From: a virus | Reading direction: 5' to 3' (one strand) | Length of the DNA stretch: 20,713 bases | Virus record (IMG/VR): IMGVR_UViG_3300043436_003317 | Coordinates: 1 to 20,713 of that record | In this document: positions 1 to 18,708 of the stretch, in pieces | Layout: the number at the start of each line of letters is the position of its first letter | Position numbering within the stretch: position 1 is the first letter of the stretch | Notes under the pieces: generated by a model | Database searches by the model: none | What the model saw: only the letters and a program-made list of their open reading frames with translations | Told to the model about the DNA's origin: nothing | Made by a program: the position numbers and the translations under genes

Positions 1-18
1 CTTTTGAGGTAACCGCCC
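1..18 (-). tRNA. Possible 5' end of a tRNA, cut by the window edge
   Basis: Read leftward from 18 the sequence is GGGCGGTTACCTCAAAAG. It fits the start of a tRNA: a 7-nt acceptor strand (GGGCGGT), T at position 8, A at 9, a 4-nt D-stem strand, A at 14 and G at 18. It lies about 15 nt past the -7 box of a leftward promoter, and the stretch between has no start codon, as expected for an RNA gene. The C at position 10 is unusual. The rest of the cloverleaf lies outside the window, so this is only a candidate. Confidence 0.3.
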
Positions 19-34
19 TTTTGATTTTGATGAC

Positions 35-65
35 TAAAGATAAGGAAGCCCTTTCGGGCCTCCAA
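35..65 (-). promoter_or_regulatory. Leftward promoter cassette with GAAA-capped hairpin in the spacer
   Basis: On the minus strand TTG (65-63) is followed by exactly 20 bp and then TATCTTTA (42-35), the same layout as the rightward cassettes. The spacer folds as GGAgGCCC-GAAA-GGGCtTCC (44-63), with one mismatch and a GNRA-type loop. It lies just past the stop of the leftward gene, so it may both end that transcript and start the next one beyond the window edge. Confidence 0.7.
44..63 (-). terminator. Hairpin terminator candidate after the leftward gene, overlapping a promoter
   Basis: Stem 44-51 with 56-63 (one mismatch at 47/60), 4-nt loop at 52-55. In the leftward direction it is followed by CCTTATCTTT, a T-rich tail. 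It starts 10 bp past the stop codon of the gene ending at 74. Confidence 0.5.
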
Positions 66-73
66 CTCTTTGT

Positions 74-349
74 TTAGTTAATTTGAGCTCTCTCTGAATA
101 AATTTTCTGAATCTTTTGCAATTCCGGCAAGCAATCTTTTGCACTCTTGCCAGTCAAGCCATAGTACTTTTTAATTTGAGTAAAAGTAACTCCTCTCATC
201 TTCATACCTAAAGCCATAATCCTTAGAGCATAGATATGAACGGCTAATTGATATCCAGCGAATGGAATCTTTCCTCCTTCAGCATGTACTGTTGGAACTT
301 GCATAGTACCATTTTCGGTAGCTAGCATTGTCTGTTGAAATTGAGTCAT
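74..349 (-). CDS. Small basic phage protein, unknown function
   Basis: A 91-aa protein that I do not recognise. The C-terminal half (about residues 40-91) is rich in Lys and Arg and looks mostly helical. The stretch around residues 55-75 (FTQIKKYYGLTGKSAKDCL) has the feel of a helix-turn-helix recognition segment, but this is weak. It is the only complete leftward gene in the window. It is supported by a full promoter cassette immediately upstream on the same strand (372-402), by an A-rich leader with the usual ATCAAA repeats ending at the ATG, and by a hairpin just past its stop. The window therefore opens at a divergent junction between leftward and rightward blocks. Confidence 0.75.
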   Translation of the reverse strand: MTQFQQTMLATENGTMQVPTVHAEGGKIPFAGYQLAVHIYALRIMALGMKMRGVTFTQIKKYYGLTGKSAKDCLPELQKIQKIYSERAQIN

Positions 350-371
350 AATTTTGATGTTTGATTATACC

Positions 372-402
372 TAAAGATAGGGAGTACAAACCAGACTCCC
401 AA
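372..402 (-). promoter_or_regulatory. Leftward promoter cassette with 6-bp inverted repeat
   Basis: On the minus strand TTG is at 402-400, a 20-bp spacer follows, and TATCTTTA is at 379-372. GGGAGT (380-385) and ACTCCC (395-400) are perfect inverted repeats around a 9-nt loop; the minus-strand spacer carries the conserved GTCTG. It drives the leftward gene 349-74 and lies back to back with the rightward promoters at 426 and 499. Confidence 0.8.
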
Positions 403-425
403 CTAAATGTTGTAAAAAAATAAAG

Positions 426-456
426 TTTTTTATATGCAGAATAGTTCGTACCTTTA
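426..456 (+). promoter_or_regulatory. Degenerate promoter cassette (TTT in place of TTG)
   Basis: AAAGTTT, then 20 bp, then TACCTTTA (449-456) has the exact spacing of the other cassettes, including the GTTCG just before the -7 box seen at 3716 and 4645. The -33 triplet is TTT instead of TTG and no start codon follows closely. It may be a decayed copy or a weak upstream promoter for the gene at 548. Confidence 0.35.
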
Positions 457-498
457 CTACAAGATTTGGTTTTTCAAAAAAAATAATTAAAAATAAAG

Positions 499-528
499 TT
501 GCTAGCTCGGAATAAGTTCATATCTTAA
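499..528 (+). promoter_or_regulatory. Promoter cassette for the gene at 548
   Basis: TTG at 499-501, 19-bp spacer (one shorter than usual) and TATCTTAA at 521-528. The leader ATCAAAATTAAAAAATATG belongs to the leader type ending AATATG, also seen before 3997, 4219 and 6142. The spacer pairing is weak (AGCT at 504-507 with AGTT at 515-518). Confidence 0.7.
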
Positions 529-547
529 GGTATCAAAATTAAAAAAT

Positions 548-832
548 ATGACTAAGCAAGAATTTTTAGAGGCTAAAGTTAGCCAGGTATCTCAAGTTTA
601 TAAAGGTAAAAGAAACCAATGCCGTTGCGGTTGCGGAGGAACTTACATTTCTACTTCTTTCATGATAAAGCCAAGAAATGAAATAAACGACAAATTGGCC
701 GAAAGGAGATTAAAGCAAGCTCATAAATTAATTTTAGAGGGAGCGGATTTTGATTCCAGCTATAATTACTTCGACGTTGAAACGGGAGAAAATCGTTGCT
801 TGACTTTTTACTTCGACGATATTAAAAGCTAA
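548..832 (+). CDS. Small protein with a Cys-rich CxCxC motif, unknown function
   Basis: A 94-aa protein with C25, C27 and C29 in the segment CRCGCGG, which could bind a metal but lacks a visible second ligand pair. The middle (about 45-65) is helical and charged, and the C-terminus ends in an aromatic-acidic strand (LTFYFDDI). I do not recognise the family. The ATG at 548 sits right after a cassette leader, which fixes the start. The stop is followed directly by the promoter for the next gene. It is probably an early or accessory phage gene. Confidence 0.8.
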   Translation: MTKQEFLEAKVSQVSQVYKGKRNQCRCGCGGTYISTSFMIKPRNEINDKLAERRLKQAHKLILEGADFDSSYNYFDVETGENRCLTFYFDDIKS

Positions 833-839
833 ATTAAAG

Positions 840-870
840 TTGGTAGGGATGTAAAAAGTCCCTACCTTTA
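840..870 (+). promoter_or_regulatory. Promoter cassette with 7-bp hairpin for the gene at 892
   Basis: TTG at 840-842, 20-bp spacer, TACCTTTA at 863-870. GTAGGGA (843-849) pairs perfectly with TCCCTAC (859-865) around a 9-nt loop, and the right arm runs into the -7 box itself. In RNA the stem is followed by CUUUA, so it may also end the transcript of the gene at 548. Confidence 0.75.
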
Positions 871-891
871 TGTAAATCAAAATTAAAGGTT

Positions 892-1266
892 ATGAAAAAG
901 TATTTAGAAGTTTGGGTAGGAAGTAGAGGTTGTATAGAAGGTGTAGAGGAAAAGGAGTTTGAGAATATTGAGGAGTATTTAGATGGGGAGAGTAATAAGG
1001 TGTTGAAAGATATGAAAGAGGAGGGTGGGTATGATGATTGGGAGTATGGAATGTATGAATGGAATAGAGTTAATGATGGGTATAATTTAGGAATGGGAGA
1101 TGAAGAAGAAATGTTTTATGTAGATATGGAGTGTGAGAATTTTAAGAAGTTTGTAAAGAAGGAATTAGATGAGGAGTTGAATGGAGAGACTTTTTGGAGT
1201 TGGAAGGATTTGGATGGTAAGAAGGTTTGGGAATTAATTAATAGTTGTGATTTATTTGGAGAGTAG
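892..1266 (+). CDS. Acidic small protein encoded almost without cytosine
   Basis: A 124-aa, strongly acidic protein rich in Glu, Asp, Gly, Trp and Tyr. It contains no Ala, Pro, His or Gln and a single Thr. I do not recognise it. By direct reading the coding strand has only one C in 375 bases (position 1190, the obligate C of the Thr codon); G is roughly a third of the bases. Every Tyr, Asn, Asp, Phe and Cys codon ends in T, every Ser is AGT, and every Leu is TTA or TTG. Start is fixed by the cassette leader ending in GGTTATG. The last codons (F-G-E-stop) carry the TTG of the next promoter. Acidic phage early proteins are often host inhibitors or DNA mimics, but nothing here proves that. Confidence 0.8.
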   Translation: MKKYLEVWVGSRGCIEGVEEKEFENIEEYLDGESNKVLKDMKEEGGYDDWEYGMYEWNRVNDGYNLGMGDEEEMFYVDMECENFKKFVKKELDEELNGETFWSWKDLDGKKVWELINSCDLFGE

Positions 1267-1286
1267 AAATATTCTTCTTATCTTTA
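1256..1286 (+). promoter_or_regulatory. Promoter cassette overlapping the end of the upstream gene
   Basis: TTG at 1256-1258 inside the last codons of the gene ending at 1266, 20-bp spacer, TATCTTTA at 1279-1286, then a leader ending AAAGTTATG at 1308. The spacer shows only weak pairing. Confidence 0.7.
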
Positions 1287-1307
1287 GTAAAATCAAAAAT
1301 AAAAGTT

Positions 1308-1556
1308 ATGAAAAATTATTGTGTAGTAATTAACAACTCACCTCTTTTCTTTAAAAGTTTAGACGGGGTTAAGGATTGGTTTAAAAAGTGTGGTGTTAAA
1401 AAGAGATTAGAGTTAGAGGATGAAGAGTATGTAGATTTAGATAATTTGGAAAGTATAGTTGGTAATGAAGAGGTAGAAATTTATAACGACTGTATGTGTG
1501 AAATGGGAGATGATTATTGTAGTATTAGTTTATCTGAAATTGTCTTTGAGGATTAG
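1308..1556 (+). CDS. Acidic Cys-containing small protein, unknown function
   Basis: An 82-aa protein, basic in the first third (a WFKKCGVKKR segment near residues 24-33) and acidic after that. C62, C64 and C71 form a CxC-x6-C pattern that could hold a metal or be incidental. I do not recognise the family. The coding strand is very poor in C from about 1381 on, echoing the neighbouring gene at 892, while the first 70 bases use C normally. The start follows a canonical cassette leader and the stop codon abuts the next promoter (TAG then TTG). Confidence 0.75.
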   Translation: MKNYCVVINNSPLFFKSLDGVKDWFKKCGVKKRLELEDEEYVDLDNLESIVGNEEVEIYNDCMCEMGDDYCSISLSEIVFED

Positions 1557-1587
1557 TTGGGAGTCTGAATAATAGTATCTATCTTTA
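1557..1587 (+). promoter_or_regulatory. Promoter cassette for the gene at 1609
   Basis: TTG at 1557-1559 immediately after the upstream stop codon, 20-bp spacer beginning GGAGTCTGAA, TATCTTTA at 1580-1587. The left arm is the same as at 6345, but the right side (AGTATC) does not complete the repeat, so this copy has no strong hairpin. Confidence 0.75.
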
Positions 1588-1608
1588 GTAAAATCAAAAA
1601 TAAAAGTT

Positions 1609-1905
1609 ATGTTAGTAAGAGAATTAATCCAGGAGTTACAAAAGTTTAACCCTGAACAAGAAATGGTATTTCATTGTGATATTGAAAGTGGAAGAAGTTT
1701 CAGTAGTTGTAAGGAAGGAGATTATGGTATTGAGGTTGAGGATTTGGATGAAGATGAGATTAAAGAACAGTTGATAAAGGAAATGGGTTATAGTGACGAG
1801 GAGGATTTAGATGAAGATGAGACTAAGGATTTGAATAAGTGGGTTAAAGAATATGAACCTAAAGTCGTATTTAGTATCTCAGGAGAAGAAACGGATTATG
1901 AATAG
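1609..1905 (+). CDS. Small acidic protein with an internal repeat
   Basis: A 98-aa protein. Its N-terminus (VRELIQELQKFNPEQEMVF) resembles the opening of many short phage and bacterial proteins of the type V-R-E-L-I-x-x-L-x-x-hydrophobic-P-x-x-x-x-V, whose role is unknown to me. Residues 44-52 and 65-73 repeat the motif EDLDEDE(I/T)K, also visible in the DNA as near-identical 27-base copies (1738-1764 and 1801-1827). The C-terminus returns to a beta-strand (KVVFSISG). It probably forms a compact alpha/beta fold with an acidic insertion. The start is set by the cassette leader ending AAAGTTATG. Confidence 0.75.
   Translation: MLVRELIQELQKFNPEQEMVFHCDIESGRSFSSCKEGDYGIEVEDLDEDEIKEQLIKEMGYSDEEDLDEDETKDLNKWVKEYEPKVVFSISGEETDYE
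1738..1827 (+). repeat. Two direct 27-bp coding repeats
   Basis: 1738-1764 and 1801-1827 both encode E-D-L-D-E-D-E-(I/T)-K and differ at only a few bases. They are in frame 63 bp apart, consistent with a local duplication inside the gene. Confidence 0.6.
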
Positions 1906-1917
1906 TAAATAAAATAG

Positions 1918-1948
1918 TTGGGAGTTTGAAATATAACTCCTAACTTTA
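1918..1948 (+). promoter_or_regulatory. Promoter cassette with perfect hairpin for the gene at 1963
   Basis: TTG at 1918-1920, 20-bp spacer, TAACTTTA at 1941-1948. GGAGTT (1921-1926) pairs with AACTCC (1935-1940); adding TTG against TAA gives nine pairs including one G-T. The copy at 2833 has GGGGTT/AACCCC in the same place. Confidence 0.8.
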
Positions 1949-1962
1949 GTAAAATCAAAGTT

Positions 1963-2196
1963 ATGAAAATAATAGACAAACCAGTCCTCTATAGGACTAT
2001 TACTACACAAGTTGTACATAAGGGTAAGAGTTATGACATTTATATTAAAGAGGATATAAATTGTACTAATTATGAAATTAGAAAGATAGATGAAAATGGA
2101 GATGTAGAAGAAGATGAAATTGGAGATGAGAAACTAAGAAAGAAGATTATAGACTTTCTAGAATATGAGTTAGAAGATTTTGAATTATTTAATTAG
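1963..2196 (+). CDS. Small hypothetical protein
   Basis: A 77-aa protein that I do not recognise. The first half is predicted beta-rich (VLYRTITTQVVHKGKSYDIYIKE); the second half is a charged helix ending in an acidic tail (EYELEDFELFN). The beta-strand-then-helix plan resembles other tiny phage proteins without implying function. It is led by its own promoter cassette with a short leader (AATCAAAGTTATG) and followed 13 bp after its stop by an aGTTGG that begins the next cassette. Confidence 0.75.
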   Translation: MKIIDKPVLYRTITTQVVHKGKSYDIYIKEDINCTNYEIRKIDENGDVEEDEIGDEKLRKKIIDFLEYELEDFELFN

Positions 2197-2201
2197 TTTA
2201 G

Positions 2202-2232
2202 TTGGAAGTATGAATTATATTACCTACCTTTA
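2202..2232 (+). promoter_or_regulatory. Promoter cassette for the gene at 2248
   Basis: TTG at 2202-2204, 20-bp spacer beginning GAAGTATGAA, TACCTTTA at 2225-2232, then the leader AAAATCAAAACAAATG. Only weak pairing (GTA with TAC) is seen in the spacer. Confidence 0.75.
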
Positions 2233-2247
2233 GTAAAATCAAAACAA

Positions 2248-2499
2248 ATGAAAAAGTATATCTTAATTAAATTTGACAGGTATGAAGCTGCTAAATCAGA
2301 AGTCATTAACCATTATACTTATGAGCATAATTTAGGATTAGCTTTTAAAGAAGCTTTAGTAAATCTATGGGAATTTGAAGAGGGTACTGAAATTAATGCA
2401 AATGAAATTAAAGGGCATGGAGATAAGATGGGATTAGACTTTGAAGAAGAAAGTTATTTGTTTTGGGAAGATAAAATAAAGTTGGAGAATATAAAATAA
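2248..2499 (+). CDS. Small hypothetical protein
   Basis: An 83-aa acidic protein that I do not recognise. It starts with a beta-strand (KKYILIKFDRY), has a central helix (about residues 28-44) and ends in a mixed charged stretch with aromatic residues (ESYLFWEDK). Its last codons (K-L-E-N-I-K-stop) double as the -33 TTG and first half of the spacer of the following promoter. The C-terminal residues may therefore be constrained by the promoter rather than by protein function. Confidence 0.75.
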   Translation: MKKYILIKFDRYEAAKSEVINHYTYEHNLGLAFKEALVNLWEFEEGTEINANEIKGHGDKMGLDFEEESYLFWEDKIKLENIK

Positions 2500-2512
2500 G
2501 TATCTATCTTTA
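2482..2512 (+). promoter_or_regulatory. Promoter cassette inside the end of the upstream gene
   Basis: TTG at 2482-2484 lies in the coding end of the gene that stops at 2499; 20-bp spacer, TATCTTTA at 2505-2512, then GGTATAATCAAAA and a leader ending AAAGTTATG at 2542. Confidence 0.75.
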
Positions 2513-2541
2513 GGTATAATCAAAAATCAAAAATTAAAGTT

Positions 2542-2820
2542 ATGAAAAAAGAAAAATTCTTGGAATTGGCTAGTCAATTATTTGACCAATCAACAGATTT
2601 AAAAGAGGAAGAAAAAATTCAAATTGAAACTAATCTCTTTGATGAAATTGTAGATCAAATTGGAAGTGAAGTTAATGACTTGGGGAGAGATTTAATTGAG
2701 AATTATGAATTGGAAATGTGTTCCCATGAAGTTACTTTAGAAGAAGTTACTTTGGATTATGGAGAAATTGAAAAGACAGTTAAAAATGTTTTGTTAAGAT
2801 ATTTTTCAACTTTTGGGTAG
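2542..2820 (+). CDS. Small acidic helical protein
   Basis: A 92-aa, strongly acidic and apparently all-helical protein (LELASQLFDQS, EEKIQIETNLFDEIVDQIG, and a C-terminal helix about 72-90). I do not recognise a family. The start is fixed by the cassette leader. After the stop an A-rich stretch leads into the strongest spacer hairpin of the array (2833-2863), which could terminate this transcript. Confidence 0.75.
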   Translation: MKKEKFLELASQLFDQSTDLKEEEKIQIETNLFDEIVDQIGSEVNDLGRDLIENYELEMCSHEVTLEEVTLDYGEIEKTVKNVLLRYFSTFG

Positions 2821-2832
2821 TAAAAAAATTAG

Positions 2833-2863
2833 TTGGGGGTTTGAAATATAACCCCTAACTTTA
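2833..2863 (+). promoter_or_regulatory. Promoter cassette with GGGGTT/AACCCC hairpin
   Basis: TTG at 2833-2835, 20-bp spacer, TAACTTTA at 2856-2863. GGGGTT (2836-2841) pairs with AACCCC (2850-2855) around TGAAATAT. Compared with the copy at 1918, one A-T pair has become G-C through changes on both sides, a compensatory pair. Confidence 0.8.
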
Positions 2864-2884
2864 TGTAAATTAAAAATCAAAGTT

Positions 2885-3142
2885 ATGTTACAAAACAAAT
2901 TAGTAGAAATCAAAGGTCGTTTATTAGAAATGATGTTTGAAATGTATCGAGATATGAATACAGACGAAACGGGAATTGACTATGCAGAATTCTATAGTGA
3001 GATTCAATCCTCGCTAGCAGAGATTAGAGGTATTACTGATTTAGATAAATTAGAAATATTTTGTGAAGGATTTGGATTTAACGACGAAGTAACTAACCCG
3101 ATGTCATTCCCTTCACTTGTAAAGCAAGCATATGAATCTTGA
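2885..3142 (+). CDS. Small acidic helical protein, overlaps next gene
   Basis: An 85-aa acidic protein with a helical N-terminal half (KLVEIKGRLLEMMFEMYRDM) and further helices to the C-terminus. Function unknown. It has its own cassette promoter and leader. Its last 11 bases overlap the start of the next gene (ATGAATCTTGA), so the two are probably translationally coupled. This pair is the one clear exception in the array to the rule of one promoter per gene. Confidence 0.75.
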   Translation: MLQNKLVEIKGRLLEMMFEMYRDMNTDETGIDYAEFYSEIQSSLAEIRGITDLDKLEIFCEGFGFNDEVTNPMSFPSLVKQAYES

Positions 3143-3389
3143 TAATAAAGAAAATTATCAAAAGGAAATGAGATTGCTCTATAGACTTCCTTTAGGTAAA
3201 TTAAAATCGTTTGTAGGAGAGCTATACCAGACTCGATTTGAGGAGCATAATATAGAAGAGGATGCTTACTATAGATTAGCCTCTCATGTATTAAACCAGC
3301 GTAAGGAAGGTAGACGGTCATTAATCTTCCACCTAAAAAACTTAGTTGTTGGTCTGATAATCGTTTCTTATCTTTATAATATAAATTAG
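3132..3389 (+). CDS. Small basic protein with hydrophobic C-terminus
   Basis: An 85-aa protein, basic and helical up to about residue 67, then a short hydrophobic stretch (LVVGLIIVSYLY). No family recognised. It has no cassette of its own and starts inside the last codons of the preceding gene, implying coupled translation. The hydrophobic tail is encoded by the complete promoter of the next gene (3346-3376 lies within the reading frame). The tail may thus be a by-product of promoter sequence, or a real weak membrane-contacting segment. Confidence 0.7.
   Translation: MNLDNKENYQKEMRLLYRLPLGKLKSFVGELYQTRFEEHNIEEDAYYRLASHVLNQRKEGRRSLIFHLKNLVVGLIIVSYLYNIN
3346..3376 (+). promoter_or_regulatory. 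Promoter cassette wholly inside the upstream coding region
   Basis: TTG at 3346-3348, 20-bp spacer containing GGTCTGATAA, TATCTTTA at 3369-3376. All of it is translated as the C-terminus of the gene ending at 3389. The leader of the downstream gene (AAACAAAAACAGATAGATATG) is not of the usual type. Confidence 0.65.
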
Positions 3390-3408
3390 TAAACAAAAAC
3401 AGATAGAT

Positions 3409-3630
3409 ATGGCATTCAAGAATTTGAACCCGGTGTACAAAATCGTAGCATTTACAGAAGCAAAGCGTCATGGTGATATTAATCGCATCGCTGAAGAGAC
3501 TGGCTACACTCAATCAATGGTATCTAAAACATTACGTGGTCTTCGTAACAACACTTCAATCGTTAACAAAGCTTACCGATTAGTGAAAGACCGTCAAACT
3601 AACTTGCAGAAGCTAACCGCTATTGCATAG
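3409..3630 (+). CDS. Small helix-turn-helix DNA-binding protein
   Basis: A 73-aa basic protein. Residues 23-45 (DINRIAEETGYTQSMVSKTLRG) fit a helix-turn-helix: a first helix with A at the packing position, the turn at TGY, then a recognition helix QSMVSKTLRG. The rest is a short N-terminal helix and a basic C-terminal helix, so it would be a minimal, probably dimeric, transcription regulator. Codon choice uses more C and G than its neighbours, suggesting high expression or separate origin. It sits inside the cassette array and ends with a strong terminator, so it forms an isolated transcription unit. A role in switching the array's promoters is inference only. Confidence 0.75.
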   Translation: MAFKNLNPVYKIVAFTEAKRHGDINRIAEETGYTQSMVSKTLRGLRNNTSIVNKAYRLVKDRQTNLQKLTAIA

Positions 3631-3635
3631 TTCAT

Positions 3636-3650
3636 ACTTTTGATTTTGAT
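3636..3650 (+). repeat. Inverted copy of the cassette leader before a terminator
   Basis: ACTTTTGATTTTGAT is the reverse complement of the leader motif ATCAAAATCAAAAGT found before many start codons here. It lies 5 bp past the preceding stop codon and just upstream of the hairpin at 3656. Confidence 0.5.
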
Positions 3651-3655
3651 AGATC

Positions 3656-3684
3656 GACCTGGAGTTTCCACTCTGGGTCTTTCT
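3656..3684 (+). terminator. Rho-independent terminator after the HTH gene
   Basis: GACCTGGAGT (3656-3665) pairs over 10 positions (two G-T) with ACTCTGGGTC (3670-3679) around TTCC, followed by TTTCT. It is placed 25 bp after the stop at 3630. Confidence 0.8.
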
Positions 3685-3697
3685 ATGTAAAATAAAG

Positions 3698-3728
3698 TTG
3701 CTCGTTTGATTAATCGTTCGTATCTTAA
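3698..3728 (+). promoter_or_regulatory. Promoter cassette for the gene at 3751
   Basis: TTG at 3698-3700, 20-bp spacer (starts CTCGTTTGA, ends CGTTCG), TATCTTAA at 3721-3728, leader ending AAAGTTATG. The copy at 4627 is nearly identical. Confidence 0.75.
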
Positions 3729-3750
3729 GGTCTAATCAAAAATTAAAGTT

Positions 3751-3939
3751 ATGGAAAGTTTATCGACAGTAGATGCAGTAATTGCCTATTTAAAGGCTAT
3801 GGATGTAGATGGAGATACTATGGAGTATATTATTAAGGAGGTTGGAATGAAGCCACAAATGCTTAGACAGCTAATTATGAGTTCTCCTGTAAAAGATACT
3901 AGAGAGTTATTCGAAGAAAGAATATCTTCGATTGGATAA
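3751..3939 (+). CDS. Small helical protein, unknown function
   Basis: A 62-aa protein made of short helices (VDAVIAYLKAM, EYIIKEVGMKPQMLRQLIMSS). The segment around residues 28-42 could be a helix-turn-helix but lacks a convincing turn. No family recognised. The start follows a standard leader and the stop lies a few bases before the next cassette. Confidence 0.7.
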   Translation: MESLSTVDAVIAYLKAMDVDGDTMEYIIKEVGMKPQMLRQLIMSSPVKDTRELFEERISSIG

Positions 3940-3946
3940 AATAAAG

Positions 3947-3977
3947 TTGCTAGTCTGAAAACTAATTCATATCTTAA
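3947..3977 (+). promoter_or_regulatory. Promoter cassette for the gene at 3997
   Basis: TTG at 3947-3949, 20-bp spacer starting CTAGTCTGAA, TATCTTAA at 3970-3977. TAGT (3951-3954) can pair with ACTA (3961-3964). The leader is of the AATATG type. Confidence 0.75.
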
Positions 3978-3996
3978 GGTATCAAAATTAAAGAAT

Positions 3997-4182
3997 ATGA
4001 AAACATTTGAAATTGGAATTACAAGAACATCTTACTCAACTAAAAAATTCATAGTTGAAGCTGAAGATAATACTGAAGCAATTATTATCGCAATGGAACA
4101 AGCTTATAATGAGGTCTTTGAGGAAGACTCGGCAGATTATTCAGTAGGAAATATTGAAGAAAAAGTTGGAAGTCTGGATTAG
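3997..4182 (+). CDS. DpnD/PcfM-like small protein
   Basis: A 61-aa protein with the pattern M-K-x-F-E-x-x-I-T ... F-x-V-E-A-E-D-x-x-E-A-x-x-x-A: a first strand (KTFEIGITRT), a second strand (KKFIVEAED) and a helix with the EAI motif, ending in an acidic tail. This is the plan of the DpnD/PcfM-like family, widespread in mobile elements and phages and of unknown function; the assignment is from the motif pattern only. The last codons (V-G-S-L-D-stop) encode the TTG and conserved GTCTG of the next promoter, so the C-terminus is shaped by it. Confidence 0.6.
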   Translation: MKTFEIGITRTSYSTKKFIVEAEDNTEAIIIAMEQAYNEVFEEDSADYSVGNIEEKVGSLD

Positions 4183-4196
4183 AGTTCATATCTTAA
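4166..4196 (+). promoter_or_regulatory. Promoter cassette overlapping the end of the upstream gene
   Basis: TTG at 4166-4168, 20-bp spacer, TATCTTAA at 4189-4196. GAAgTCT (4169-4175) pairs with AGAgTTC (4181-4187) apart from one G/G mismatch, loop GGATT. The left arm is also the coding end of the gene stopping at 4182. Confidence 0.75.
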
Positions 4197-4218
4197 GTCA
4201 TCATCAAAATTAAATAAT

Positions 4219-4467
4219 ATGTATTATTCAGAAACCTCAGTATCTAACCTAGTAAGAGTGTTAGATGAAAATGTAACTAGATTCCAATTTAAGAAATTAG
4301 ATGGAAGTATTAGAAATGCTTTAGGAACTAGAAATGAGTTATTAATCCCTAAAAAAGCTCAAGTAAAGTACTTAGATGACATTTCTAAGAAATCAGTAGT
4401 ATTTTGGGACTTAGAGGAAGAAGCTTTTAGAAGCTTTAGTAGAAATGCTGAAGTTTCAGTAATCTAA
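4219..4467 (+). CDS. DUF2693-like SH3 beta-barrel protein
   Basis: An 82-aa protein with the signature F-x-F-x-K-x-D-G-x-I-R-x-A-x-G-T (residues 22-37), a linker, then V-F-W-D-L-E-x-x-A-F-R-S-F (residues 61-73). This matches the pattern I know from the DUF2693 family of small SH3-barrel-fold proteins common in Bacteroidetes and their mobile elements; their function is not established. The match supports a Bacteroidetes host. It has its own AATATG-type leader and is followed 6 bp after the stop by a combined terminator-promoter. Confidence 0.65.
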   Translation: MYYSETSVSNLVRVLDENVTRFQFKKLDGSIRNALGTRNELLIPKKAQVKYLDDISKKSVVFWDLEEEAFRSFSRNAEVSVI

Positions 4468-4473
4468 ATAAAG

Positions 4474-4504
4474 TTGGCCCTTCGGGGCCTTCTTTTTATC
4501 TTTA
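4474..4504 (+). promoter_or_regulatory. Promoter cassette whose spacer is a terminator
   Basis: TTG at 4474-4476, exactly 20 bp, TATCTTTA at 4497-4504. The spacer is the hairpin GGCCC-TTCG-GGGCC plus TTCTTTT. The same arrangement is found at 7056. It drives the 33-aa gene at 4525. Confidence 0.8.
4476..4497 (+). terminator. UUCG-capped terminator inside a promoter
   Basis: Stem 4476-4480 with 4485-4489 closed by C(UUCG)G, an extra-stable loop, then TTCTTTTT (4490-4497). It starts 9 bp past the stop at 4467. It fits a rho-independent terminator for the upstream gene and shares all its bases with the next promoter. Confidence 0.8.
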
Positions 4505-4524
4505 GTAAAATCAAAATCAAAGTT

Positions 4525-4626
4525 ATGATAACATTATTTGAATTAACGATCATAGTAGTCGTTCAGGTATTAGGATTAGCTCTAGTAAAGACTCTAATAG
4601 AAGATTGGAAAGCTAGAAAGAAATAG
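4525..4626 (+). CDS. 33-aa single-pass membrane microprotein
   Basis: M-I-T-L-F-E-L then a hydrophobic stretch (residues 8-23, TIIVVVQVLGLALVKT) and a basic tail ending K-A-R-K-K. This is one membrane helix with a positive, presumably cytoplasmic, C-terminus. It is very short but well supported: it has a complete promoter cassette, the canonical leader AATCAAAATCAAAGTTATG, and its stop codon is immediately followed by the next cassette (TAG then TTG). No family recognised. Small phage membrane peptides can act on host envelope functions or lysis timing; nothing here decides that. Confidence 0.75.
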   Translation: MITLFELTIIVVVQVLGLALVKTLIEDWKARKK

Positions 4627-4657
4627 TTGCTCGTCTGATCAATCGTTCGTATCTTAA
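4627..4657 (+). promoter_or_regulatory. Promoter cassette for the gene at 4679
   Basis: TTG at 4627-4629 directly after the upstream stop, 20-bp spacer (CTCGTCTGATC...CGTTCG), TATCTTAA at 4650-4657, leader ATTAAAAATCAAAGTTATG. Only three spacer bases differ from the copy at 3698. Confidence 0.75.
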
Positions 4658-4678
4658 GGTATATTAAAAATCAAAGTT

Positions 4679-4909
4679 ATGTATCAATTAAAGTCATTAT
4701 TAGACAGAGCTAAGCCAGAGTTAATCGCCGCTTTAAACGCTCAAATGGATGAGTATCCAGGAATCGCAGAATCAGTAGTAAAGCATTTAGACTCTACCTA
4801 CACAGTGACTCATTTGAATTGGGGAATGTGGGTAGACGTAAGAAGTCTGTGGATGCAGACTACTAAGGAACTTATAGACAGCCCTTGGGACTGTTTTGAT
4901 GATCTTTAG
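4679..4909 (+). CDS. Small hypothetical protein
   Basis: A 76-aa protein with helices at about 3-22 (LKSLLDRAKPELIAALNAQM) and 27-38, then a Trp-rich C-terminal part (NWGMWVDVRSLWMQ ... PWDCFDDL). No family recognised. Codon use is a little less AT-skewed than in the genes from 892 to 2820. It has its own cassette and leader. Confidence 0.75.
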   Translation: MYQLKSLLDRAKPELIAALNAQMDEYPGIAESVVKHLDSTYTVTHLNWGMWVDVRSLWMQTTKELIDSPWDCFDDL

Positions 4910-4917
4910 AAATAAAG

Positions 4918-4948
4918 TTGCTCGTTTGAATTAAAGCAGCTATCTTTA
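4918..4948 (+). promoter_or_regulatory. Promoter cassette for the gene at 4971
   Basis: TTG at 4918-4920, 20-bp spacer, TATCTTTA at 4941-4948, then GGTATAATCAAAA and AAAGTTATG. GCT (4920-4922) and AGC (4938-4940) pair at the spacer ends. Confidence 0.75.
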
Positions 4949-4970
4949 GGTATAATCAAAAATCAAAGTT

Positions 4971-5159
4971 ATGGAAAAGTTTACAAAACGCGAAAGCGGA
5001 ATCATTATTGCTAGTCTTGAGAACGCAATGTCTGACTCTCTACATGATATCCAAGCAGGGGAAGAAGCTGGAAAAACTCCGCTCTTTACTGAAGAGTTCG
5101 TTAAGCAAACCTATGAAGATCTAATCCAAAGGATTAAGGAGATGAGTAGAAAACATTAA
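4971..5159 (+). CDS. Small helical protein, unknown function
   Basis: A 62-aa protein with two helices (SGIIIASLENAMSDSLHDI and EEFVKQTYEDLIQRIKEMSR) joined by a Gly/Pro-containing turn, i.e. a helical hairpin. No family recognised. Similar in plan to the protein at 6142. Start fixed by its cassette leader; stop directly followed by the next cassette. Confidence 0.7.
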   Translation: MEKFTKRESGIIIASLENAMSDSLHDIQAGEEAGKTPLFTEEFVKQTYEDLIQRIKEMSRKH

Positions 5160-5166
5160 AATAAAG

Positions 5167-5197
5167 TTGGCGGTCTGAAAAATGGCCGCTATCTTTA
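5167..5197 (+). promoter_or_regulatory. Promoter cassette with GCGG/CCGC arms for the DUF932 gene
   Basis: TTG at 5167-5169, 20-bp spacer starting GCGGTCTGAA and ending CCGC, TATCTTTA at 5190-5197. GCGG (5170-5173) and CCGC (5186-5189) lie at the two ends of the spacer. Long A/T-only leader up to AAAGTTATG at 5228. Confidence 0.8.
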
Positions 5198-5227
5198 GTG
5201 TATTAATAAATCAAATAAATAAAAGTT

Positions 5228-6034
5228 ATGTCAAATTCGTTGCAAATGACTCCATTGAGTCTAGATCAGGTAAAGCAAAATGCACCTCAAGCATTTGCAT
5301 CAGCTCCTAAGCCAGGAGTATCTTCTAAGTATTCATTCTTACCAACGTCTCGTATCATCGAAGATATGGATCGTTTAGGATGGAAAGTGAATCAAGCGAA
5401 GTCTAATCGTAGCAGAACAGCTAACGCTAAAGAGTTCGGTAATCACGTTGTAAAGTTCTTCCATCCAGATGTCTTCATGAAGGATCAAGAAGGTAACATC
5501 GAAGCTTATGTAAACATAGTTGTAATGAACAACCATATGGGTACTGGTAGCTTTAAATTCGAAATGGGTATCTTTAGATTAGTTTGTGAGAACGGATTGA
5601 TCATCAAAGATAAAGACTTCGGAGGTTTCAATATGAGACATTCAGGTTACTCTTTCGATCAATTACAAGAGACTTTGAATCAAGCAATGACTCAATTGCC
5701 AGAAGTGGTAGGTAAGATTAATTCTTATAACCAGATCATCATGAGTAAGGAAGCTCAAAAGGCTTTTGCTCAACAAGCTTTCCAATTACGTTCTTATCAA
5801 GATCGTCAATTGACTGAGATTGAGTTAGAAGAGTTCTTAGCTCCTCGTCGTAAGCAAGACGAAGGCGATAGTCTTTGGGTTGTATTGAATCGTATTCAAG
5901 AGAGTGTTCTTAAAGGAGGTTATTCTATCACTAACAAGAAGGATAAGTTACGTCGTGCAAAGTCGATCAAGAACATTCAACAAGATATTAAGCTTAACCA
6001 ACAAGTTTGGGAATTAGCTGAAACGTTCGCTTAA
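5228..6034 (+). CDS. DUF932 phage/plasmid-like protein
   Basis: A 268-aa protein of the DUF932 family (phage/plasmid-like protein). Seen here: a T-S-R-I-I-E-D-M-x-x-L-G-W segment near residues 40-52, then the characteristic core G-I-F-R-L-V-C-E-N-G-L-I-I (about 114-126) followed by a SGYSFDQL segment and a long helical C-terminal half. Members are frequent in phages and conjugative elements; the biochemical role is not settled. It is the largest gene of the array and uses codons with more C and CGT (Arg) than its tiny neighbours, suggesting strong expression. Its start follows a cassette leader, and it is closed by an inverted leader copy plus a UUCG terminator. Confidence 0.85.
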   Translation: MSNSLQMTPLSLDQVKQNAPQAFASAPKPGVSSKYSFLPTSRIIEDMDRLGWKVNQAKSNRSRTANAKEFGNHVVKFFHPDVFMKDQEGNIEAYVNIVVMNNHMGTGSFKFEMGIFRLVCENGLIIKDKDFGGFNMRHSGYSFDQLQETLNQAMTQLPEVVGKINSYNQIIMSKEAQKAFAQQAFQLRSYQDRQLTEIELEEFLAPRRKQDEGDSLWVVLNRIQESVLKGGYSITNKKDKLRRAKSIKNIQQDIKLNQQVWELAETFA

Positions 6035-6049
6035 CTTTGATTTTGATTT
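6033..6049 (+). repeat. 17-nt perfect reverse complement of a cassette leader
   Basis: AACTTTGATTTTGATTT begins inside the stop codon of the DUF932 gene. It is the exact reverse complement of the leader at 4508-4524 and nearly so of several other leaders. It sits 8 bp before the terminator stem. Confidence 0.6.
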
Positions 6050-6056
6050 GAGAGAG

Positions 6057-6078
6057 AGCCCTTCGGGGCTTTCTTTTT
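6057..6078 (+). terminator. UUCG-capped terminator after the DUF932 gene
   Basis: AGCCC (6057-6061), loop TTCG, GGGCT (6066-6070), then TTCTTTTT. A classic rho-independent terminator 22 bp past the stop. Unlike those at 4476 and 7058 it does not coincide with a promoter; the next cassette starts at 6092. Confidence 0.85.
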
Positions 6079-6091
6079 GTTAAACAAAAAG

Positions 6092-6122
6092 TTGTTAGTC
6101 TGGATAGGAGTCCGTATCTTAA
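6092..6122 (+). promoter_or_regulatory. Promoter cassette for the gene at 6142
   Basis: TTG at 6092-6094, 20-bp spacer starting TTAGTCTGGA, TATCTTAA at 6115-6122, AATATG-type leader identical in its last 18 bases to that before 548. No good end-to-end hairpin in this copy. Confidence 0.75.
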
Positions 6123-6141
6123 GGTATCAAAATTAAAAAAT

Positions 6142-6339
6142 ATGAAATTAGAATTAACCTACAGGGAAGAATCTCTACTCCTTGATTCAGTAGTAACTAG
6201 AATCAGAACAATTGAGAAATTAATATATGGTTGGAATGAATTTCCAGATGAACACACTCCCGGCCTGATAGAGACCTATACTCTAGATTTATTAGACTTA
6301 AAAGAGATGGAAAAGAAATTACTTAAACCTTTAATTTAA
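6142..6339 (+). CDS. Small helical-hairpin protein
   Basis: A 65-aa protein with helices at about 5-28 (TYREESLLLDSVVTRIRTIEKLI) and 42-62 (IETYTLDLLDLKEMEKKLLK) separated by a Pro/Gly-rich turn. It looks like a helical hairpin or coiled coil, possibly a protein-protein adaptor. No family recognised. It has its own promoter and leader; the stop is directly followed by the next cassette. Confidence 0.7.
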   Translation: MKLELTYREESLLLDSVVTRIRTIEKLIYGWNEFPDEHTPGLIETYTLDLLDLKEMEKKLLKPLI

Positions 6340-6341
6340 AG

Positions 6342-6372
6342 TTGGGAGTCTGAAAAGGACTCCTTACCTTTA
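6342..6372 (+). promoter_or_regulatory. Promoter cassette with perfect GGAGTC/GACTCC hairpin
   Basis: TTG at 6342-6344, 20-bp spacer, TACCTTTA at 6365-6372, GGTATAATCAAAAAT leader. GGAGTC (6345-6350) pairs with GACTCC (6358-6363) around TGAAAAG. Confidence 0.8.
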
Positions 6373-6394
6373 GGTATAATCAAAAATAAAAGTT

Positions 6395-6604
6395 ATGAAT
6401 GTATCAATTGAAAGATTAGAAGAGATCGAAATAGAACGATCTGAAGTAATAGCCAATCCAGCCTTCCAGGTATGGATGAGAGAGCTAAATGTATCTCAGT
6501 CCTGGTCCGATCCAGAGCCTAAATTAAGAGCGAATGAATTAACTAGGCAATACGACTTTAGTAAAAGTAAAGTTGCTTGTCTGGAATTAAGTACTTACCT
6601 TTAG
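6395..6604 (+). CDS. Small hypothetical protein ending inside a promoter
   Basis: A 69-aa protein, acidic and helical at the N-terminus (IERLEEIEIERSEVI), with a W-M-R-E-L-N segment and a basic middle. Its final residues S-K-V-A-C-L-E-L-S-T-Y-L are encoded by the complete promoter of the next gene, and its TAG stop uses the last A of that -7 box. The natural C-terminus before promoter capture may have been near residue 58. No family recognised. Confidence 0.7.
   Translation: MNVSIERLEEIEIERSEVIANPAFQVWMRELNVSQSWSDPEPKLRANELTRQYDFSKSKVACLELSTYL
6573..6603 (+). promoter_or_regulatory. Promoter cassette wholly inside the upstream coding region
   Basis: TTG at 6573-6575, 20-bp spacer starting CTTGTCTGGA, TACCTTTA at 6596-6603, leader ending AAAAGTTATG at 6627. 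CTT (6576-6578) can pair with AAG (6589-6591). Confidence 0.75.
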
Positions 6605-6626
6605 TTATAAACAAAAAATAAAAGTT

Positions 6627-7049
6627 ATGTCAAGTAAATTAAACTTCAAGGCTCAGTTAGCCGCCTTTAGAGCTAACACGGAAGAGTATATCGATAACGG
6701 TAGCTACTTCTTCTACGATTGGTTTTGTTCAGAGAAAGCTCTTAAGATTAAGAGTAAGTTATTAATGACTAAAGCCGAGAAGGTAATGTCTAAGTTAGGA
6801 TTAGATCCTGAAACGCATTATGTGTTCTTAAAGAACAACTGCCCTGGTCAAGGTAAGCTTTATGATTCATTTAGCATTTGTACCTACGACGAAAAAGGGG
6901 ATGTAGTAATTTGGTGCACCCCTGCTTCTGGTCATGACAGAGAAGCTGGACAAGCTCAATTGGTAGACTTTAGAGTAACTACTGAGGAAGAGCATAACGG
7001 TAAAACGTTTAAGGCTAATAGCTGGAAAGAGCTTACGCACTCCATCTAA
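6627..7049 (+). CDS. Phage protein of unknown function
   Basis: A 140-aa protein with a helical N-terminal half (residues 5-58) and a beta-rich C-terminal half with aromatic and Cys residues (HYVFLKNNCPG, FSICTYDEKGDVVIWCTP, AQLVDFRVTTEEEH). C71, C85 and C96 do not form an obvious zinc-site pattern. No family recognised. The start is set by the cassette leader. A UUCG terminator that doubles as the next promoter begins 8 bp after its stop. Confidence 0.75.
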   Translation: MSSKLNFKAQLAAFRANTEEYIDNGSYFFYDWFCSEKALKIKSKLLMTKAEKVMSKLGLDPETHYVFLKNNCPGQGKLYDSFSICTYDEKGDVVIWCTPASGHDREAGQAQLVDFRVTTEEEHNGKTFKANSWKELTHSI

Positions 7050-7055
7050 AAAGAG

Positions 7056-7086
7056 TTGGCCCTTCGGGGCCTTCTTCTTATCTTTA
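7056..7086 (+). promoter_or_regulatory. Second promoter cassette whose spacer is a terminator
   Basis: TTG at 7056-7058, 20-bp spacer GGCCC-TTCG-GGGCC type, TATCTTTA at 7079-7086, leader ending CAATCAAAGTTATG at 7110. It is almost the same as 4474-4504 although the flanking genes are unrelated. Confidence 0.8.
7058..7079 (+). terminator. UUCG-capped terminator inside a promoter
   Basis: GGCCC (7058-7062), loop TTCG (7063-7066), GGGCC (7067-7071), then TTCTTCTT. It is placed to end the transcript of the gene stopping at 7049. Confidence 0.75.
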
Positions 7087-7109
7087 GTCAAATCAAATCA
7101 ATCAAAGTT

Positions 7110-7598
7110 ATGAATCAAATCAAAGTAACAAACACAAAGACATTAGTAGGTACAGACTCAATCATTGCTAAAGCAGAGAGCAGTGACTGTATGGTCTATG
7201 CAACAGCAGCAGCATTCGATCTAGACTATGACAAGGCACATCAACATGTCAAGCATAGGTTCGGTAGAAAGGATAAGAAAGGTACTGCTATGTTTAGTAT
7301 CATTAGAGGTATGCAAGAGATGGTAGACCTTAGAGAGAATCTTAACGGTAAGTTCGTTAGAGAGATAATAAGCCAACCATATAAGAAGTATCACCTGCAT
7401 GGTAGAGATGTTAATAGAAAGAATAGAGTGAGTACCTTCATCAAAGAACATAGTCAAGGTACCTATTTAATATTAACTAGTAGTCATGCCCTAGTAAGTA
7501 AGGATGGTGAGATGTTAGATAATAACTCAGAAGGATCAGGTAAGGCATTTGTTAATAGAGCTTTTAAGATAGAGCCAGTCATTACCTTCCAACCATAG
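7110..7598 (+). CDS. Papain-like cysteine peptidase candidate
   Basis: A 162-aa protein. The plan fits a small papain-fold (C39-like) peptidase: S-S-D-C27-M-V-Y-A-T-A-A-A at the head of a helix (nucleophile Cys), a central helix with R-F-G-R, and near the end G-T-Y-L-I-L-T-S-S-H126-A-L-V-S-K-D-G-E-M-L-D137-N, where H126 and D137/N138 would complete the triad. Comparable short proteins occur in phages; the substrate is unknown. I chose ATG 7110 because the cassette leader (AATCAAAGTTATG) ends there; the frame is open further upstream to 7056, but that would translate the promoter. It is the last gene of the cassette array. Confidence 0.65.
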   Translation: MNQIKVTNTKTLVGTDSIIAKAESSDCMVYATAAAFDLDYDKAHQHVKHRFGRKDKKGTAMFSIIRGMQEMVDLRENLNGKFVREIISQPYKKYHLHGRDVNRKNRVSTFIKEHSQGTYLILTSSHALVSKDGEMLDNNSEGSGKAFVNRAFKIEPVITFQP

Positions 7599-7630
7599 GT
7601 AGTAAATATAAAAACAGTCCATGGTAGGGC

Positions 7631-7651
7631 GGTGACAGAAAAAAAGTCACC
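7631..7651 (+). repeat. Perfect 6-bp inverted repeat GGTGAC/GTCACC
   Basis: Arms 7631-7636 and 7646-7651 around the A-rich loop AGAAAAAAA. In RNA the right side is followed by C-rich sequence, not a U-run, so it is not a standard terminator. Confidence 0.7.
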
Positions 7652-7675
7652 CCCACCCGCGGGCAGTCGTCACCA

Positions 7676-7705
7676 CTTGAGGGCACTTGCGGTCACCTGA
7701 CGGCA
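7676..7705 (+). repeat. Three tandem 10-bp repeats
   Basis: CTTGAGGGCA, CTTGCGGTCA and CCTGACGGCA follow one another without a gap. A further related unit CCCGCGGGCA lies 20 bp upstream (7656-7665), in phase with a 10-bp period. Such helical phasing suits arrayed protein-binding sites. Confidence 0.55.
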
Positions 7706-7800
7706 GTCTAACACCACCCTAATTACAGCTGTTATCGGGGTATAGGCGATATAGCAGGGGGGTAAGTGACGAGCCACACCCGGGGAAAATTTTAAACAAA

Positions 7801-9376: not shown

Positions 9377-10648
9377 ATGTGTATGGATGATAAAGAAATA
9401 CTTCGTAGAGTAATTCAGGGCTTTCAATTAATCCCTGCCAAGCGCGGCTTTGGACATCCTTATGTAACTAAGACCGGTGCTGCAACACCTGATCTATCTA
9501 AGCGAATTAATGCTTGGATTAAGCAAAATTTTCCGCAGTCAAATATTATAACATCTCATGAAGGTGTTTATAAGACTATAAACTTTCGTAGAGCTATGAA
9601 TGAAAATAGAATCAGGTTAGTAGACTTGTTTGAGATTGAAGGTCCGACAAGAACTCCTAAAAATAGAATAGTATATGCTTGGACTTTTCCGGAGCAGAAT
9701 CTTGCTTATATTGGATTAACGGGGGATGAGAAAAAGAGATCTGCTTCACATAGAAGCCTTAAAGCTCAGAAAACTACCGCTGTCTCTAGATATATTAGAG
9801 AGACGGGATTTACTCCAGAGTATAGAGTAGTTTCGAAAACGGAAGAGAATCCGTCTGGACAGGTAGATGAAGATAAAGCAGTAGAGTTGGAATGTTACTT
9901 TATGGCAAAGTATAAGGCCGATGGCTGGGATTTACTTAATCTTGCACCTTGCGGCTCTAAGGGAGGCGGTGTTAGAGATGAAATTGCAATTATTAATGCG
10001 CTTGACGATTTTATACATAGTACTAGTACAGAGCTTGATACTTTAAATACGCTACCTGGAAGTGATTATACGGTAGATGCTATTAAAAATTATAATCTAG
10101 GAGATAGAGTATTTAATAGATTAAAGGATATTGTTACTGCAAATAGTATTACCTCTACAAAGCAGCTTAGAAATTTAACGAGCCGTAGAGTGAGTAAGTT
10201 AATTGAAGACTGGTCGTCTAGGTTTCCGGAAGACTCTTGGCAGAGAAAATTGTTTCCTGAGAACACTAGAGGCTTAGAAAAGCCGCAAGAAGGTGTAGAG
10301 TCTTTCTTAGCAGAGCCTAATAATTTAAATAAAGATCAGTTAAAGTTGATAACTAAAAGAGCATGGAAGGGAGTGAGACCTGAGCAAGAGAAAGCTTTTT
10401 TAGCTAAGATAAAGGGTATTATGGATAAAAATAATGTAAGTGATCCTGCTGGATTAGATAAGCTTGCTGGTAATACTATTGTAACTTGGATGTTATCTGA
10501 TCACGATAAGAATAATGATAATAAATGGAAGCCTTTACTGTATCGAGCTGATTATAAATCACCGAGAAGTAAAGCTCCTATAAGCGAATCTACTATAGAT
10601 AGTAAAGAGATAATTAAACGTATTATTAAAGATTGCTGCACTAAGTAA
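9377..10648 (+). CDS. GIY-YIG endonuclease-like protein
   Basis: A 423-aa protein. The GIY-YIG-like core lies in the middle: V-Y-A-W (residues 99-102) in place of GIY, A-Y-I-G-L-T (110-115) for YIG, basic residues after it (119-121), and a candidate metal-binding Glu at 170 or 172 before a W-D-L-L-N-L segment (184-189). Flanking parts of about 95 residues before and 230 after are likely DNA-binding or unknown domains; the C-terminal part is helical and basic. Free-standing GIY-YIG genes in phages are often homing endonucleases, inserted between phage genes, and the flanking terminator and CTATTTAT signals would suit that. A repair or defence role is not excluded. The start could be 9377 or, more likely, 9383. 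Confidence 0.65.
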   Translation: MCMDDKEILRRVIQGFQLIPAKRGFGHPYVTKTGAATPDLSKRINAWIKQNFPQSNIITSHEGVYKTINFRRAMNENRIRLVDLFEIEGPTRTPKNRIVYAWTFPEQNLAYIGLTGDEKKRSASHRSLKAQKTTAVSRYIRETGFTPEYRVVSKTEENPSGQVDEDKAVELECYFMAKYKADGWDLLNLAPCGSKGGGVRDEIAIINALDDFIHSTSTELDTLNTLPGSDYTVDAIKNYNLGDRVFNRLKDIVTANSITSTKQLRNLTSRRVSKLIEDWSSRFPEDSWQRKLFPENTRGLEKPQEGVESFLAEPNNLNKDQLKLITKRAWKGVRPEQEKAFLAKIKGIMDKNNVSDPAGLDKLAGNTIVTWMLSDHDKNNDNKWKPLLYRADYKSPRSKAPISESTIDSKEIIKRIIKDCCTK

Positions 10649-18297: not shown

Positions 18298-18708
18298 ATG
18301 GCGTATAATTTAAAACAAGTAAACGTACTCGATTTAAGACCCTCTACAGGGGTTGGAGTTGCTTTGCCGTTTAATACGCCTGCAGTATTTCAAACTGTAT
18401 ATACAACACAGGAGCAGTTAAAGTATAATATAATTAACTTTCTATTAACAAATAGACGTGAAAGGATTTTTAATCCTAATTTCGGAGCAAGTATAAGGAA
18501 TAAGGTGTTTGAGCAGATTACTACTGATACTCTTGACAGTTTAGATACTCAAATAAGAACAGGGGTAAATCAATATTTTCCAAACGTAGTCATTACGGAT
18601 TTAACTTTCGGAGGCAATCCTGATGAGAATCTATTAACAATTCAGTTTTCGTATACGATAAGTAACACAGGTGCATCTGACAATATAACATTAAGTTTAA
18701 ATGGCTAA
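18298..18708 (+). CDS. Baseplate wedge protein, gp25/GPW family
   Basis: A 136-aa protein with the family's hallmark: I-I-N-F-L-L-T-N-R-R-E-R-I-F-N-P-N-F-G-A (about residues 43-62), a helix with V-F-E-Q-I-T-T-D-T-L-D-S-L, then I-T-D-L-T-F-G-G-N and a closing strand L-L-T-I-Q-F-S-Y-T-I. In T4, gp25 belongs to the wedge core (with gp6 and gp53) that surrounds the hub. Length is typical. It overlaps the next gene by 8 bases (ATGGCTAA), so the two wedge partners are translated together. Confidence 0.85.
   Translation: MAYNLKQVNVLDLRPSTGVGVALPFNTPAVFQTVYTTQEQLKYNIINFLLTNRRERIFNPNFGASIRNKVFEQITTDTLDSLDTQIRTGVNQYFPNVVITDLTFGGNPDENLLTIQFSYTISNTGASDNITLSLNG

Follow-up and report, generated by a model that had tools for sequence, protein, structure and literature searches.

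Probable terminator hairpins nested within Bacteroidota-type promoters of the small genes of a T4-like virus

The stem-loops of phages RB49 and phi1 were reportedly called effective terminators in the abstract of Arbiol et al. 2010 (GBE), and Comeau et al. 2014 (GBE) are said to have described the promoter-early stem-loops (PeSLs) of T4-like phages as 'Composite conserved promoter-terminator motifs'. As citing papers present them, these composite motifs belong to T4-like coliphages (PMC4503421, PMC3950731). Here, a comparable arrangement is reported in a 20,713-nt virus sequence (IMG/VR record IMGVR_UViG_3300043436_003317, positions 1 to 20,713; hereafter the window), which carries about 22 small genes in positions 1-7600 and virion genes in its right half. 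Nearly each small gene is preceded by one copy of a promoter cassette, and about ten of the cassettes in the window, about half of the copies, contain a strong hairpin. The pattern is real and structural but does not define a novel class of promoter: the hairpin is most probably the terminator of the upstream gene, nested in the promoter of the next one, and the arrangement is a variant of PeSLs in Bacteroidota phages.

In E. coli phage RB49, at least 11 promoters have the form TTGAC-[arm]-loop-[arm]-TATA(A/C)T (e.g., TTGACAGGGGATCGGTGATCCCCTATACT, TTGACGCGGGGAGAAATCCCCGCTATAAT and TTGACAGGGGAGGATAACTCCCCTACAAT); in nearly every case an ATG lies 26-45 nt farther on. Inverted repeats of 7-8 bp with varied arms and GAAA or GCGA loops fill their -35/-10 spacer, and further RB49 promoters have a stand-alone terminator farther upstream. 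The nested promoters have the geometry of those window cassettes whose stems join the spacer ends, and they likewise lack a strong U-tract after the stem. The first-pass annotation of the window, which knew of no described phage promoter family with this property, had missed both the PeSLs of T4-like coliphages and the filled spacers of RB49. It is also observed that in RB49 (L263/L264) the sequence AAAAAAGTTG stands directly before TTGAC in the nested promoters and resembles AAATAAAGTTG of the Bacteroidota phages. Phage T4 has intercistronic C(UUCG)G hairpins; those of the present cassettes also lie between genes but, together with their T-tracts, form part of the promoter that follows.

As far as the citing papers characterize PeSLs, the likeness includes a T4-like myovirus as carrier, many copies before small accessory genes, the combination of a stem-loop with a promoter (early-type in PeSLs) and the recurrence of cassettes before unrelated genes. 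The differences concern the promoter, a strong early one of the host sigma70 type (TTGACA/TATAAT) in PeSLs and a Bacteroidota -33/-7 promoter whose spacer has 20 nt here, as well as the host phylum and the register of the hairpin, which is much freer here (straddling TTG, inside the spacer as a UUCG stem with a T-tract, or running into the -7 box). The Bacteroidota boxes may be the host-appropriate equivalent of the PeSL promoter, though the A that closes their -7 box is at odds with the consensus of the host (PMC6847099). Two other described motifs are more distant. The ESAS of cluster K mycobacteriophages are inverted repeats that recur ahead of some of the small phage genes (PMC3203893), but their arms follow a conserved 17-bp consensus in a translation-start-associated motif, whereas the arms of the present cassettes are unconserved and lie inside the promoter. 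In the haloarchaeal virus HGTV-1, a TATA-like box with an inverted repeat precedes most genes of one genome half and was likened to PeSLs (PMC3950731); its promoter is archaeal, and its resemblance to the present cassettes is judged from the published description.

The carrier was assigned from protein matches. Over its full length, the baseplate wedge protein (18701-20566) shares 44% identity with its counterpart in Flavobacterium phage immuto, which is annotated with T4-type gp20/gp23, and the DUF932 protein (5228-6034) is 39% identical to that of immuto; none of the named phages compared at the DNA level was close to the window. Judged by these matches, the virus is a T4-like myovirus of Bacteroidota, related to immuto, and shares the phage type in which PeSLs are found.

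The cassettes, TTG-N19/20-TA(T/C/A)CTT(T/A)A, occur in 22 copies in the window, 20 on the plus strand and two on the minus strand, so that the family proposed earlier is genuine and its count of about 24 slightly high. The spacer measures 20 nt in 21 cassettes and 19 nt in one, and each cassette is followed by an ATG within about 20-50 nt, after an A-rich leader without a Shine-Dalgarno sequence. The Bacteroidota primary-sigma promoter, as described in F. johnsoniae, has TTTG at -33 and TANNTTTG at -7 (PMC6847099). The cassettes resemble it in both boxes (TTG and TA--TTT), in an A-rich leader that lacks a Shine-Dalgarno sequence and in an ATG about 20-40 nt downstream, and they are probably active as promoters of this type, with TTG at about -33 and TATCTTTA at about -7. 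All of them contain TTG and TA-CTTT. In place of the first T of the host TTTG they have AG (98% G), the last base of their -7 box is A where the host has a nearly invariant G, and the phage spacer is, but for the one copy of 19, strictly 20 nt. Exact matches to TTG-N20-TATCTTTA are at chance level in a Flavobacterium genome (seven, against seven with a reversed-pattern control), and the cassette string gave 11 scattered matches across 257 Gb of bacterial genomes, none of them with the phage leader. A simple sigma70 scan of the window returned no excess, as expected for promoters of the Bacteroidota type. Together with the chance-level occurrence in a Flavobacterium genome, the final A of TATCTTTA in place of the host G leaves room for a phage factor that may alter polymerase specificity.

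The hairpins were analyzed in a set of 493 non-redundant (clustered) cassettes from IMG/VR relatives (designated by L numbers), the window and immuto; across the relatives, about a fifth of the cassettes have a strong hairpin. Immuto, which infects Flavobacterium sp. LMO8, has its cassettes at, e.g., ~68,713 and ~70,241 of NC_055915. The mean folding energy of the 16 non-redundant window cassettes is -7.2 kcal/mol, compared with -4.2 to -4.7 kcal/mol for column-permuted or half-swapped versions, and none of 200 replicates was as low under any null. A minimum free energy of -9 kcal/mol or less is reached by 18% of the 493 cassettes and by 2% of column-permuted copies. The inverted-repeat arms listed in the first-pass annotation are present where it placed them, and its concern that shuffled spacers might form as many stems can be set aside: four window spacers have end-anchored perfect stems of at least 5 bp, compared with 0.22 in shuffled spacers (0 of 2000 shuffles). 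Covariation in the strict sense, also claimed there, was not found. At fixed registers in the window cassettes it is not significant (register sums of 20, 21 and 22 were reached by 189, 81 and 59 of 1000 arm shuffles), and the 493 cassettes aligned on their promoter boxes show a coherent stem at no register. Fixed columns fail because the hairpins occupy different registers.

Arm sequences are wholly different between cassettes and the symmetry center slides, the end of the 3′ arm ranging across the relatives from before the middle of the spacer to inside the -7 box. The register classes comprise stems at the spacer ends (e.g., GGAGTCT/GGACTCC), stems within the spacer (e.g., GCCTC-UUCG-GAGGC-TTCTTCT), stems that straddle TTG (e.g., AGGGAATTAG-TTG-CTAGTTCCCT-TTCTTTT) and stems that extend into the -7 box. 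In a rare form (L187:2811, L202:1046, L212:3491 and L155:3204), the stem has 13-15 bp and its 3′ arm takes in the whole -7 box and the start of the leader (GGTACCTAGAGATA..TATCTTTAGGTATC). The conserved spacer middle GTCTGAA holds as a consensus of the window clade and does not extend beyond it. Rfam searches of the window and five relatives (among them L001, L003 and L124) returned no match.

Several features point to a structure formed in RNA. Stems with one internal non-Watson-Crick pair have G.U in 24 cases, A.C in one and other mismatches in five, where the null gives 0.6, 0.4 and 2.6 per replicate, and once letters fixed by the promoter are left out the count is still 13 G.U to one A.C. 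A DNA structure or a palindrome bound by protein would treat the two mismatches alike. C(UUCG)G loops with a stem are found 24 times on the promoter-sense strand and never on the antisense strand. At the 1256 site, which was wrongly included in the earlier list of copies lacking a good hairpin, the window has an RNA stem of 7 bp, two of them G.U, and the ortholog in L089 has a perfect stem, GGAAAGT/ACTTTCC, in which one pair is changed on both sides and the two G.U pairs have become G-C. These observations support an RNA hairpin on the promoter-sense strand and, with it, the earlier proposal that selection acts on structure and not on a single sequence bound by a protein; of the two structures offered at the time, RNA hairpin or extruded DNA, strand asymmetry and sliding register disfavor the second.

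The context of the hairpins resembles that of terminators. The gene context tests used simple open reading frame calls on cassettes that are related within one phage, and their p-values are approximate. In the free spacer columns after the 3′ arm, the T fraction is 0.65, whereas cassettes without a hairpin have 0.39 in those columns (p = 2e-10). Strong hairpins are present in 46-59% of cassettes whose TTG lies 10-40 nt past the upstream stop codon and in none of the 24 with TTG at 60-100 nt. A separate upstream terminator and a terminator within the cassette seldom occur together (2/34 vs 65/303, p = 0.04). In the window, two stand-alone hairpins on the plus strand, one resembling an intrinsic terminator (3656..3679) and one a terminator with AGCCC-UUCG-GGGCT and a T-tract (6057..6070), are followed by the promoters at 3698 and 6092, both without strong hairpins. 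A GC-rich stem followed by a T-rich tract, as in intrinsic terminators, characterizes the UUCG and TTG-straddling forms and is weakly developed in the spacer-end forms of the window. T-tract enrichment, G.U bias and distance to the upstream stop codon point indirectly to termination at the hairpins. The hairpin is not part of promoter recognition, many cassettes having none and its register sliding relative to the boxes; what had been taken for a property of a promoter family behaves as the terminator of the upstream gene.

In the proposed mechanism, an RNA hairpin would be encoded within the same ~35 bp as the promoter of the following small gene. A polymerase coming from the upstream gene would transcribe the hairpin, which would fold and, helped by the T-rich tract or the -7 box after the stem, terminate or attenuate the upstream transcript. 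The duplex DNA of this stretch would at the same time be the promoter of the downstream gene, whose transcript would begin past the -7 box and so would not contain the hairpin. The outcome would be compact gene units, separately transcribed and exchangeable. The hairpin might in addition couple the two genes, a polymerase that terminates or pauses in the spacer interfering with initiation there or being released by it; such coupling is a rather unlikely extension. If it were true, the state of the promoter would set read-through, and each cassette would be a small timing switch, not a passive overlap of two signals.

Four observations count against the hairpins being terminators. The spacer-end hairpins of the window clade have poor U-tracts, with only TATCTTTA or TAACTTTA after the stem. 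The 13-15 bp stems of L155, L187, L202 and L212 are followed by no U-tract, and termination leaves this form unexplained. Hairpins are not rarer at divergent sites, which have no upstream gene on the same strand (6/23 vs 77/356); this is partially offset by one divergent window site (402), whose stem is lost in the ortholog of L138 (L002). Finally, in 238 of 337 cassettes a simple scan recognized neither a nested nor a separate terminator.

Orthologous sites illustrate how freely the hairpins vary. At the promoter of the DUF932 gene, the window and L004 share the spacer-end stem GGCGGTC..GGCCGC and L111 also has a spacer-end stem, while L224 and L124 have a UUCG stem with a T-tract, L103 a TTG-straddling stem and other relatives no hairpin. 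After the gene 4219-4467, the UUCG hairpin of the window is matched in L002 by GGTAGGGA/TCCCTACC. Orthologous promoters with hairpins of other sequence and register are what would be expected of exchangeable terminators. In 78 of 104 near-identical cassette pairs, the genes that follow have no detectable DNA similarity; genes may be exchanged by recombination via the cassettes.

An mRNA processing or 3′-protection element, at which read-through RNA would be cut by an RNase III-like activity or shielded from 3′-5′ exonucleases, is an unlikely alternative to termination. The sense-strand RNA signature fits it equally well and it accommodates the spacer-end stems without strong U-tracts, but T-tracts are enriched after the 3′ arm, nested stems avoid sites with a separate terminator, and stem-UUCG-stem-TTCTTTT, more frequent than any other single form, has the classic make-up of an intrinsic terminator. 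Far less probable is that the palindromes are operators for a phage repressor or activator bound between -33 and -7. Palindromes between promoter boxes are in a typical operator position and could co-regulate many cassettes; however, the arms share no half-site and differ wholly, the symmetry center slides without fixed-register covariation, and G.U mismatches are tolerated where A.C is not. It is similarly improbable that palindromic cassettes spread as recombination sites and that the hairpins are by-products with no role in transcription, since this would account for the near-identical cassettes before dissimilar genes but gives no reason to expect T-tracts, a G.U bias or an influence of the distance to the upstream stop codon. 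Short inverted repeats at promoters of phage N4 act as a recognition signal for its virion polymerase, a precedent for extruded DNA hairpins recognized by a phage RNA polymerase that has least to recommend it here, given the many cassettes with identical boxes and no stem, a register that is variable where an N4-type promoter requires a hairpin at a fixed distance from the start, and a G.U/A.C asymmetry and UUCG sense bias unexpected for a structure forming on both strands; DNA cruciforms, like operators, were rejected on these asymmetries and the sliding register.

The individual cassettes of the window are as follows. On the minus strand, the composite cassette at 35..65 combines the hairpin GGAGGCCC-GAAA-GGGCTTCC (63..44, minus strand) with a TTG/TATCTTTA promoter on the terminator side of the minus gene 349..74, and the same cassette is found in L002 and L180; the promoter of that gene (372..402, minus strand), a divergent site, has the spacer hairpin GGGAGT/ACTCCC. 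Divergent to it lies the hairpin-free promoter with the 19-nt spacer (499..528), on the plus strand like all that follow. Composite cassettes are located at 840..870 (hairpin 842-866, GGTAGGGAT/GTCCCTACC), 1256..1286 (GGAGAGT/ATTCTTC), 1916..1948 (11-bp stem AGTTGGGAGTT/AACTCCTAACT with one G.U) and 2831..2863 (11-bp stem AGTTGGGGGTT/AACCCCTAACT, distinguished from the stem at 1918 by a single pair, altered in both arms). Farther right are those at 4474..4504 (GGCCC-UUCG-GGGCC at 4476-4489, with the T-tract TTCTTTTT running into TATCTTTA), 5167..5197 before the DUF932 gene (hairpin 5168-5191, TGGCGGTC/GGCCGCTA), 6342..6372 (hairpin 6345-6363, GGAGTCT/GGACTCC) and 7056..7086 (GGCCC-UUCG-GGGCC at 7058-7071, with TTCTTCTTATCTTTA). 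The promoters at 3346..3376, 3698..3728, 3947..3977 and 4627..4657 have no hairpin and those at 1557..1587, 2482..2512 and 6092..6122 no strong one. Only a weak hairpin is present at 2202..2232; those at 4166..4196 and 6573..6603 are also weak, and the one at 4918..4948 is marginal, with a long loop.

Three further observations concern neighboring sequences. At L003:6291, L124:1107, L124:2607 and L001:2285 (minus strand), no gene comes after the cassette; the sequence there is GC-rich, has AGGCGCCC in common (e.g., gtgggtcatcaggacaggcgcccgaaaag) and may encode a small non-coding RNA. Positions 7610-7800 of the window, which separate the early-type genes from the block that follows, are non-coding and GC-rich with short repeats (gtcacccccacccgcgggcagtcgtcacc...), and had no match in Rfam. 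A 423-aa protein (9377-10648) with a weak match to GIY-YIG endonucleases is possibly a homing endonuclease adjoining the virion genes.

A terminator fused into the next promoter would hence not be confined to the T4 relatives of E. coli but also accompany promoters of a very different type, those of aquatic Bacteroidota phages that are abundant, and the hairpin can take almost any register. The design would save space, the stop signal of one gene often being contained in the signal that starts its neighbor. With hairpins present or absent on the same boxes, the ~500 natural cassettes would be a ready-made set for studying DNA shared by termination and initiation. Variable register and different promoter together point to repeated selection for compact, separately transcribed and exchangeable gene units.

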